Source: a candidate division FCPU426 bacterium (GTDB taxonomy: Bacteria > Oederibacteriota > JAUXIB01). From it: 35,793 nucleotides of DNA. Below are positions 10,938 to 29,992 of the stretch, in pieces (the first letter of the stretch is position 1; each line of letters opens with the position of its first letter). A program made the position numbers and the translations under genes. The notes under the pieces were generated by a model. It was not told the origin of the DNA. It saw only the letters and a program-made list of their open reading frames with translations, and made no database searches. The stretch spans positions 1-35,793 of the forward strand of contig JAUXIB010000006.1 in NCBI GenBank assembly GCA_030621225.1, in the 5' to 3' direction.

Positions 10938-11021
10938 CTGTATCTCGTATCTAGTATCTTGTATCTCGTTGCCTGTAAGCTTCGAAACGAGATACCAGCT
11001 ACGGGCTACTAGATACGATCA
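10938..11021. repeat. Heptad array (12 units) with inverted halves
   Basis: CTGTATC TCGTATC TAGTATC TTGTATC TCGTTGC CTGTAAG CTTCGAA ACGAGAT ACCAGCT ACGGGCT ACTAGAT ACGATCA. Confidence 0.8.
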
Positions 11022-12270: not shown

Positions 12271-12389
12271 CAGTCGTTAGTCGTTGGTATCTAGTATCTA
12301 GTTTAGCTTACGAATTTAGCTGAACGCTATACGCAATACGATACGTAGTCAGCAACCAGATACTAGCTACTAGATACGAGATACTGCCT
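12271..12389. repeat. Heptad array, 17 units in one phase, with inverted halves
   Basis: CAGTCGT TAGTCGT TGGTATC TAGTATC TAGTTTA GCTTACG AATTTAG CTGAACG CTATACG CAATACG ATACGTA GTCAGCA ACCAGAT ACTAGCT ACTAGAT ACGAGAT ACTGCCT. Confidence 0.8.
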
Positions 12390-12520
12390 TCTGTCGCCTG
12401 CCCTGAGGAAGCGTAGCAAATCGAAGGGTTATCCAAAAAAGAGTTGTTGACGTCGTGTCGTCGTGGTAAGTGCCGTTATCCAAAGTAGTTTCTCTCAAGT
12501 TGTTCCTCTGTGTTCTCTGT

Positions 12521-13500: not shown

Positions 13501-13605
13501 TTAGTATTTAGTATTTGGTATATGGTGTTTGGTCGCCTATTCACAAGCATACTAAATACAATTTTTGCGCTTCATAATTCATAACTCAGAATTCATAATT
13601 CGCGG
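13501..13605. repeat. Heptad array, 15 units, overlapping the 3' end of the antiporter CDS
   Basis: TTAGTAT TTAGTAT TTGGTAT ATGGTGT TTGGTCG CCTATTC ACAAGCA TACTAAA TACAATT TTTGCGC TTCATAA TTCATAA CTCAGAA TTCATAA TTCGCGG. Confidence 0.8.
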
Positions 13606-27153: not shown

Positions 27154-27517
27154 AACTCCTTTTTTTACCAACGACCAACGACTTTTTCACCACGACGTCA
27201 CAACGTTTTTCTTTTCAAACATCAAGGCACTAAGACATCCACCTTCGTCATCCTACTACGCCAAGGCTTCAAAAGACAAGAGGATACGGCAAGACGAGCT
27301 AAGAAACATCCTTTTTTAAAAAAGCCCTTTGTGTCTCGATTTTCCTTTGTGCCTACCATTTGCCGTCAAATGCCTCGCAAAAATCAATGATTGCTCCCCT
27401 AGTAATCAAAGAGAGACCACGGCCGTTATCCAAGGGATTCCTTGGTGTCTTTGTGGTAAAAGCCGTTAACGTCGTGTCGTCGTGGTAAATGCCGTTATTA
27501 AAAAACCAATCTGTGGA

Positions 27518-27763: not shown

Positions 27764-27821
27764 AACTGGGGTGTAGGACGGCAATATACGCAATGCGACA
27801 TACGATATACTGAATACAGTG

Positions 27822-28547
27822 CTAAATCACCTGCCCCTGCTTAAGCCATTTCATCGGCGCTGGCTTGAACTGCTTATAGTTATTGCCATAATGGTGGCAG
27901 AGGATCTTTTTCTTTATCTCTTTTGGCAGCGTCTGGAGCTCTTCCAGGGAGCAATGCACACCACCAGTAAATAACTGAGTGTCATAGATGATCACATCCG
28001 AGATCTTGGCCATCCTAGTAATCAACTCGGCGTCAAACATGGCATCCGCTGAGAAAAAAGTCCTGCGGCGGGGCGTCTTGAAATAGATAGCATAACTGGG
28101 AAACGCTAATACGTGCTTAACCGGGATAAAGGTATAAGAAAAGTCACCCAGCTTGTAGGACTTATCCGGATCTACCGCTTTTACCTGGAAATAATCTTCA
28201 AGCGTCAGGCGGCCGGTGTGATCCCTCCAGAGGGCCGGCATTAAGCGCTTCTTGAGGCCTTCAATTACGGCCTTGGGCGCGATCAGCGGCGTCTTGTGAC
28301 CGCCCAGCATATACATATTTTTGAAGGCTATCTCTTCCAGACCGCCGATGTGGTCCAAGTGTATGTGAGTTATCAGGATCCCATCCAGATCCTTCGGACC
28401 CAAGCCAGCCTTATCCAGCCCCAGAGGCACCGAATTACCACAATCAACCAGAAAACGCTTTTGGGCCTTTGTCTCGATAAGCAGTGAAGCATTATACAAC
28501 GGAGGACGAGCAAACGCGCTGCCTGTACCAAGTGCTTTTATTTTCAT
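27822..28547 (-). CDS. MBL-fold metallo-hydrolase (RNase Z-like superfamily)
   Basis: ILITHIHLDHIGGLEE metal motif; FFSADAMFD; LCHHYG. Confidence 0.8.
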   Translation of the reverse strand: MKIKALGTGSAFARPPLYNASLLIETKAQKRFLVDCGNSVPLGLDKAGLGPKDLDGILITHIHLDHIGGLEEIAFKNMYMLGGHKTPLIAPKAVIEGLKKRLMPALWRDHTGRLTLEDYFQVKAVDPDKSYKLGDFSYTFIPVKHVLAFPSYAIYFKTPRRRTFFSADAMFDAELITRMAKISDVIIYDTQLFTGGVHCSLEELQTLPKEIKKKILCHHYGNNYKQFKPAPMKWLKQGQVI

Positions 28548-28705
28548 AATTGAATGGCTCCCTTTACTTTCCGGTCAATATGACAGTCATTTTACTACTT
28601 TTTATGCTAATAGTCCAGCAATAATTTGTTACTATGTATAGCGTGAGGAATTATGAGTTCTGAGTTACCTGTCTCGCCGTAGTCCTGACGTAGTCAGGCA
28701 GAGGC

Positions 28706-28866
28706 GGATGAATGCTGAATTATAAAGTACACAGTACACGGTACACGGTACACAGTACACAGTACACGGTACACGGGATACAGGACACTGGGGGTTCAAC
28801 TTGGAAATACACACAATGCGCAATACGACATACGATATACGAACGACGAGATACTAGCTACGCACA
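28706..28866. repeat. Heptad array, 23 consecutive units, including (GTACACR)7
   Basis: GGATGAA TGCTGAA TTATAAA GTACACA GTACACG GTACACG GTACACA GTACACA GTACACG GTACACG GGATACA GGACACT GGGGGTT CAACTTG GAAATAC ACACAAT GCGCAAT ACGACAT ACGATAT ACGAACG ACGAGAT ACTAGCT ACGCACA. Confidence 0.9.
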
Positions 28867-28872
28867 AAAACC

Positions 28873-29286
28873 ATGTCTCCTATAAACAGAAACAAACACA
28901 ACGAACTCGCGGCGCGGATGCGCCAACTAGGCGTAAAGGAAGAAGATATCCGCGAGAATTTCATCCACTCCTCGGGAAGCGGCGGCCAGAACGTTAACAA
29001 GGTCGCCACTTGCGTGCAACTTAAGCATCTGCCTACCGGCATAGAGGTAAAGTGCCAAAGAGAACGTTCGCAGGCCTTGAACCGCTTCCTGGCCCGACGC
29101 CGCCTGCTGGATAAGATAGAAGCGCAAAAAGAGGGTAAAAAATCCGCGGAGCAAGCCAAATGGGAGAAACTCCGCCGTCAAAAACGCCGTCGTTCCCGGC
29201 GAGCTAAAGAGAAAATGCTGCAGAAAAAGAAACAACAGGGGGAGAAGAAACGGCTACGCGCGCAACCTCTGTCAGGGGATGATTGA
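28873..29286 (+). CDS. Peptide chain release factor-like protein (RF-1 domain, GGQ)
   Basis: HSSGSGGQNVNKVATCVQLKHLPTGIEVKCQRERSQALNRFLARRRL plus Lys/Arg-rich tail; lacks codon-recognition domains. Confidence 0.9.
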   Translation: MSPINRNKHNELAARMRQLGVKEEDIRENFIHSSGSGGQNVNKVATCVQLKHLPTGIEVKCQRERSQALNRFLARRRLLDKIEAQKEGKKSAEQAKWEKLRRQKRRRSRRAKEKMLQKKKQQGEKKRLRAQPLSGDD

Positions 29287-29557
29287 CCAACAAAACATCA
29301 AAAACGACTATTTCACCACAACGACACGACGCTAACAACTCTTTTTTGGGATAACCCTTCGGCAAGCTCGGGACAGGCGGCGCTGGTGTTAAAAAAAGGA
29401 CGTTGCTTGTCCGTCGTTTTATCCGCCATAGTCGGAGCCGACGGCAGAAGCCCTTGACGAAGACGGATGACGTCGTGGTAAAAAAGATTTTAGTCGCAAT
29501 GGTACAATGTTGGTGTTTTAAAAAGAAAAACGTCGTGTCGTCGTGGTAAAGAAGCCT

Positions 29558-29992
29558 TTAATCTCCCGGTCGGCGGCCGTGATACAGCTTGATCAAGATC
29601 TCATCCTGCTCCCGGCGCAACTTCTCCACCTCTTCCCTGGCCCAACGTTTATCCGCGCCACTCGCTGGTTTCTCTAAAAAATATGGCGGCTGCTTGAACT
29701 GCAAGGAGCGTATAAAACCATAATATTCTGATGAATTTGGACTGTAGATATCGTTGTGCCGACGCAAGTGAAAGAACTCTTTTGTCACGCGGCTACAACG
29801 CGTATATTCCTGCCGATTGGGCTTGCTTGATTTAAGGTAACGCAAAGAGTAGTTTTCTATCCGCATGAAAGCCGGATAAATAGCGGGGTTGATCAGCTTT
29901 CGCCTCTGGTATTCACCGTAAATATAATGGGCAACCGGCGCGCTGGCGACGACCAGTATCACCAACATAAATATCATTCGTTTCCTAGTCAC
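29558..29992 (-). CDS. Hypothetical protein with N-terminal TM helix
   Basis: GTG start preceded by AGGAAACACA; MIFMLVILVVASAPVAHYIY. Confidence 0.55.
   Translation of the reverse strand: MTRKRMIFMLVILVVASAPVAHYIYGEYQRRKLINPAIYPAFMRIENYSLRYLKSSKPNRQEYTRCSRVTKEFFHLRRHNDIYSPNSSEYYGFIRSLQFKQPPYFLEKPASGADKRWAREEVEKLRREQDEILIKLYHGRRPGD

Follow-up and report, generated by a model that had tools for sequence, protein, structure and literature searches.

Does a tandem array of seven near-identical heptanucleotides, lying directly upstream of the start codon of a release-factor-like gene, act as a switch for that gene, or does it belong to something larger in the genome? The question was raised by positions 28706-28866 of the window, the 35,793-nt stretch of DNA analyzed here (contig JAUXIB010000006.1, candidate division FCPU426 bacterium), and it was addressed with a genome sample consisting of 0.8 Mb of the same genome, including 118 kb of intergenic DNA. 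The focal run is one copy, overgrown at this locus, of a composite repeat family with 7-nt periodicity that is dispersed through intergenic DNA, and what was supposed to be a gene-specific switch becomes one locus of a genome-wide repeat.

Structure of the heptad run

A sequence-only reading of this DNA had described an uninterrupted run of 23 heptads at 28706-28866. The 161-nt run is real, with 101 of 154 lag-7 matches against a mean of 41 (sd 6, maximum 60) in 1000 dinucleotide shuffles, and its core, left part and right part each exceed the shuffles. It is not uninterrupted, however, as 28783-28810 is near chance: lag-7 identity falls to 4-5/14 within this segment, and 28776-28822 holds just 17/40 matches, a value equalled or exceeded by 13 of the 1000 shuffles. 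The word phase also shifts along the run, with TAC at 0 mod 7 in the core and at 5 mod 7 on the right. The near-perfect (GTACACA/G)7 core lies exactly at 28727-28775, where it had been placed, and TRF reports it with period 7, 7.1 copies and 93% matches. By score, the focal array ranks third among the 266 period-7 arrays found in the intergenic sample. The run has the form of a heptanucleotide long simple sequence repeat, being a tandem repeat of a 5-11 nt unit that is longer than chance, and its unit, not a multiple of three, is placed in non-coding DNA.

The element begins earlier than 28706, its first block being at 28647-28667. Its parts are named here after the blocks that recur in the genome (A, TGARTTM; B, GTACACR/GGGAYAC; C, ACGCWAT/ATACGAY; D/E, TACKAGM/AACGACY), and together with the two flanking genes they are as follows:

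27822-28547, minus strand: divergent neighbour, metallo-beta-lactamase fold hydrolase (RNase Z/Apyc1-like)
28647-28667, plus strand: first part of block A, TGARTTM heptads GGAATTA TGAGTTC TGAGTTA
28668-28708, no strand assigned: 41-bp hairpin (REP-like) repeat splitting block A
28709-28726, plus strand: remainder of block A, TGAATGC TGAATTA TAAA (nhmmer match 28709-28762)
28727-28775, plus strand: expanded block B core (GTACACR)7, R in the order A G G A A G G
28776-28796, plus strand: block B tail, GGATACA GGACACT GGGGGTT, its left part matched at 13-14 other genomic places
28797-28822, plus strand: link of weak periodicity, to which other copies (L122, L132, W33739) still match
28823-28845, plus strand: block C (ATACGACATACGATATACGAACG), with further occurrences at L132 1715 and window 27785-27815
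28846-28866, plus strand: block D remnant (ACGAGATACTAGCTACG), from a word family that forms heptad hairpins elsewhere
28873-29286, plus strand: RF-1-domain protein of 137 aa with GGQ (ribosome-rescue/ArfB-like), without a Shine-Dalgarno

The downstream gene and the divergent gap

The downstream gene was rightly called release-factor-like, since the RF-1 domain is present (PF00472, 6e-25). As noted earlier, 6 nt separate the end of the array at 28866 from the ATG at 28873, and a Shine-Dalgarno-like motif is not visible. A Shine-Dalgarno stands at the first start codon in just 177 of 494 genes (control window: 61); therefore, its absence at the release-factor-like gene is ordinary here.

A start codon immediately preceded by seven near-identical units, and a weak promoter-like site (28580-28608) on the far side of the array, invite the reading that this is a phase-variable locus, in which the GTACACR count would alter promoter spacing or leader length and tune the release-factor-like gene, much as 7-bp copy number changes hmw1A expression (PMC8262952). 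However, promoter-like sites in the focal gap are near background (2 found vs. 0.8 expected), the leader RNA over 28640-28880 folds no better than shuffles (z 0.5), and the gene is of the ribosome-rescue type rather than a surface or antigen gene. Heptad arrays are found upstream of release-factor-like genes in some other lineages (10 of 63 gaps vs. 24 of 389 for other genes, p=0.016), but most of this excess comes from Syntrophorhabdaceae-type loci that are related to one another, and the words differ. With the family as a whole also depleted at such positions (see below), phase variation at this locus is considered very unlikely.

Elsewhere in the window, the minus strand at 280-387 holds a small Lys/Ala-rich ORF (~35 aa, AKKK repeats) with GGAG just upstream; as read from its sequence, it is reminiscent of histone H1-like basic proteins.

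A dispersed composite repeat family

Within the 0.8-Mb sample, intergenic lag-7 identity is 0.305 against a base level of ~0.256, decaying over lags 14 and 21, whereas coding DNA gives 0.252; the excess is intergenic only. A segment search found 266 period-7 arrays in the 118 kb of intergenic DNA vs. 2 in shuffles, with period 7 dominant and far above other periods that are not multiples of 7, of which 9 comes next. The same heptad words recur across many arrays. Block A occurs at 54 loci, in many of which it is followed by GGTACAC, GGGATAC, GGGACAC and AGGGGGC, and the strict order TGARTTM then GGTACAC/GGGATAC gives 33 genome-wide matches (some overlapping) vs. 0 in the reversed control. A loose-regex version of this test was mixed: B lies downstream of A 17 times and upstream 6 times with scattered register, in keeping with loci at which B precedes A and with an A-B register that is frequent rather than strict. 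Because of this mixed outcome, only a preferred block order is claimed.

The copies are homologous. An iterative profile of the element has 86 matches in the 0.8 Mb, focal 28709-28821 among them, and a BLAST search with the focal gap finds, for most of 28637-28857, counterparts elsewhere in the genome at 73-90% identity, up to 14 of them at the B tail. The copies vary in length and block content, and their dispersal is of the kind seen in REP- and MITE-type repeats. The heptads flanking the core, which had been taken as unrelated to it, do differ from it in sequence but are its recurrent partners in this family. Overall, the family is genome-wide and mostly non-coding, and its blocks recur in a preferred order. 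Block A carries a heptad-spaced TGA; a three-frame stop cassette was nevertheless rejected as the general cause of period 7, since the commonest word (ACGAGCT class) is without a stop.

D-type heptads (TACKAGM) pair reverse-then-forward 23 times and in the opposite order 0 times in a word-level test; a test with exact 8-mer inverted repeats gave 15 vs. 9 arrays. The resulting heptad hairpins have a left arm (GTAKCTM)n and a right arm (KAGMTAC)n, and many are bordered on the outside by GTCGTTR/YAACGAC heptads; they occur at sites including window 10940-11016, 12287-12384 and 13504-13559 as well as L126 4356, L130 14425 and L176 1043. Several have common loops and non-heptad flanks, a likeness in sequence that points to dispersed hairpin elements of common descent. 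The 41-bp hairpin repeat CCTGTCTCGCC...GAGGCGGA was observed at window 28668-28708, L130 158-198 and L185 3940-3980, three unlinked places with the identical junction GAGTTA^TGAAT inside a TGARTTM block. Another dispersed repeat, TTTACCACGACGACACGACGTTAACAACTCTTTTTTGGATAACGGC (the TTACC repeat), has 47 matches in the 0.8 Mb, with sites at window about 1664-1735, 12440-12480, 27465-27500 and 29455-29560 and at L273 1936-2029; two of its matches lie near a Y1-transposase gene (L273).

Dispersed homologous copies, the 41-bp repeat at one block A junction in three places, the hairpins with common loops and non-heptad flanks and the 7 Y1-transposase matches in the genome are all consistent with a non-autonomous mobile element (MITE/REP-like) moved by a Y1 (RAYT/IS200-type) transposase, the heptads being incidental. 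This reading is nonetheless unlikely: only the TTACC repeat and no heptad family adjoins the Y1 gene (L273), and mobile repeats of this type are not known to combine a period of 7 with many different words. No enzyme that moves heptad elements was identified in the genome.

Probable growth of the GTACACR core

GTACACR runs in the 0.8 Mb comprise 63 single units, 6 doubles, 1 triple and 1 run of seven, the focal one. Because other copies of the element have one to three units where the focal locus has seven, local growth inside an existing heptad element appears well supported on sequence comparison, as the earlier proposal of an expansion within a pre-existing heptad frame would have it. The succession of the variable base (A G G A A G G) can be read as a 28-nt period as well, which would agree with a duplication of several units at once, though on its own the pattern is weak evidence. 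Where homologous heptad copies differ in length, gaps of 7 and 14 nt are the most frequent, and among gaps of at least 4 nt, 62 of 201 in heptad copies are multiples of 7, compared with 75 of 656 in non-heptad repeats; since periodic sequence makes aligners favour period-sized gaps, and the pairs are not independent, these lengths are supportive only. Loss of mismatch repair was rejected as a cause, MutS being present in the genome. Loops of 7 nt are larger than those that MutS repairs well.

Genomic position and strand

Arrays make up 12.7% (0.127) of codirectional gaps, 9.3% of convergent gaps and 5.9% (0.059) of divergent gaps; they are densest 0-40 nt past stop codons and under-represented both between divergent genes and close to start codons, the family being found more often after genes than before them. 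In codirectional gaps, block A is sense to antisense 26:6 (26/32) at a median of 19.5 nt past the stop codon, and the B core is on the sense strand 10:1 (10/11). The focal copy itself sits between divergent genes rather than in a 3' UTR, which makes it an atypical member of the family. Since the focal run is a copy of a dispersed family that stands mostly 3' of genes, a switch specific to the release-factor-like gene is unlikely.

The 26:6 bias past stops and the 23:0 hairpin polarity exceed what would be expected of neutral slippage alone. If the copies share one ancestor, this could account for the hairpin polarity but not, by itself, for the strand bias. Together with the 10:1 ratio of the B core and with the Xanthomonas GGGAATC heptads, which likewise are on the sense strand, within 50 bp of stops and mostly transcribed (PMC4692102), these patterns suggest a possible role in transcript ends for a sense-strand 3' element. 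On a strong form of that idea, heptads in the transcript tail would bind a protein or shape transcript ends, and selection would keep the family. Insertion tolerance and copying from one ancestor could yield part of the bias, however, and the Rfam search of the window gave no match, the focal gap holds no terminator-like site, the focal copy is outside a 3' UTR and the words differ among genomes, making it quite unlikely that such a function underlies the family.

Heptad arrays in other genomes

The same-phylum comparison covered 44 genomes, all outside the taxonomic family of the focal bacterium. Among 40 sampled relatives, most have few or no arrays and a few have several with other words; heptad arrays were also found at Syntrophorhabdaceae, Aminicenantes and Omnitrophota loci. 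Arrays with other words elsewhere are expected of a period-7 mutational bias, as proposed by Mrazek et al. 2007. The (TGARTTM)3 run has 153 copies here vs. one or two copies in 3 of 144 other genomes, all pure TGAATTA. A species-exclusive vocabulary was rejected because TGARTTM runs recur in 44 viral-collection stretches, the TGAATTA word being widespread in viral contigs. The A-B composite was not seen outside the focal genome in the 144 other genomes or the viral collection.

Several individual loci were also recorded. A 243-nt in-phase array with many words of another vocabulary lies at L254 1302-1544 in a distant genome of ~0.8 Mb (G103). Outside the phylum, G131 C57:2296-2319 (L231 1499-1531) carries TACGAGCTACTAGATACGAGATAC, identical to a D-block variant of the focal genome, in a gap between two minus-strand genes; the chance expectation is far below one. 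TTTCACN heptads occur in Syntrophorhabdaceae-type genomes at comparable positions with differing copy number (L041 8439-8511, L045 8492-8574, L046 9179-9237, L090 8338-8363), two of them directly before a Shine-Dalgarno-like AAGGAG.

A speculative generalization is that heptad elements form a bacterial class of transcribed, 7-nt-phased sequences, with a vocabulary of its own in each genome and a shared grammar (sense strand past stops, one-polarity hairpins), which would be read by a protein or RNA spanning 7 nt and grown by a 7-nt polymerase step. This broad reading is regarded as a long shot.

Proposed explanation

The account judged probable is that a dispersed composite heptad family exists in this genome, and that the focal array was placed by chance in a divergent gap and probably has no gene-specific function. 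Units would be gained and lost through slipped-strand misalignment in steps of 7n, leading to local growth inside an older heptad element, and whole elements may spread to many loci via ectopic copying or non-autonomous transposition. Selection would then clear elements from coding and promoter DNA and tolerate, or mildly favour, sense-strand copies just past stops. Chance insertion would account for the presence of the focal array ahead of the release-factor-like gene.

Comparison with known heptanucleotide repeats

Over-representation of heptanucleotides in bacteria has been known since 2007 and has no settled explanation. As cited in PMC4679880 and PMC4692102, Mrazek et al. 2007 found that, among long simple repeats, heptanucleotides were the most frequent in the majority of the genomes they studied, and proposed a 7-nt polymerase-contact length.

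The closest parallels are multicopy. The GGGAATC / GGGGA(C/T)T repeats of Xanthomonas and Nostoc (PMC4692102) are, as here, intergenic and genome-wide, favour codirectional gaps, are under-represented in divergent ones, lie on the sense strand close to stops (in the present genome at the level of the family), form inverted pairs and have been proposed to originate by period-7 slippage. They consist of one G-rich, quadruplex-capable word, whereas the elements here are composite, with several mostly non-G-rich words: GTACACR has at most GG, and blocks A, C and D are without G tracts, in place of a GGG/GGGG tract per unit. A G-quadruplex reading of the core was rejected, the unit sequence having no GGG runs. 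Geobacter metallireducens (PMC2700814) has 49 copies of a fourfold GGACCGG and class 3 sites made up of five MTYCTGA heptads, most of these sites being paired across opposite strands; it shares with the present genome heptad blocks in many copies, the presence of two or more families side by side and a paired inverted arrangement, and among the forms of MTYCTGA is ATTCTGA, which is block A's word TGAATTC rotated. Those sequences were described as binding sites or RNA elements whose copy number is nearly constant, whereas here the number varies and different blocks are chained. The TAACTGA repeats of marine Beggiatoaceae (PMC4679880) are likewise abundant intergenic heptanucleotide tandem repeats, patchy across phyla, but consist of one word mostly just upstream of starts, in contrast to a family mostly past stops.

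A further comparison is with single-locus switches. At hmw1A (Haemophilus, PMC8262952) and neuO (PMC13001214), 7-nt units can likewise change by slippage, and the hmw1A repeats also lie upstream of the gene. Those arrays are long, pure and single-locus, with measured switching of surface-structure genes, whereas the array described here has 7 units, belongs to a dispersed family, adjoins a housekeeping-type gene and is known from sequence alone.

New in the present genome are the multi-word composite chained elements and the one-polarity heptad hairpins (23:0). With its many words, chained blocks and dispersed copies, the genome is best filed with the known multicopy heptad repeats, among which its composite dispersed elements, the 1/2/3/7 GTACACR series and the strict hairpin polarity make it a strong case, and a test bed for asking whether period 7 originates in the replication machinery or reflects a 7-nt reader.
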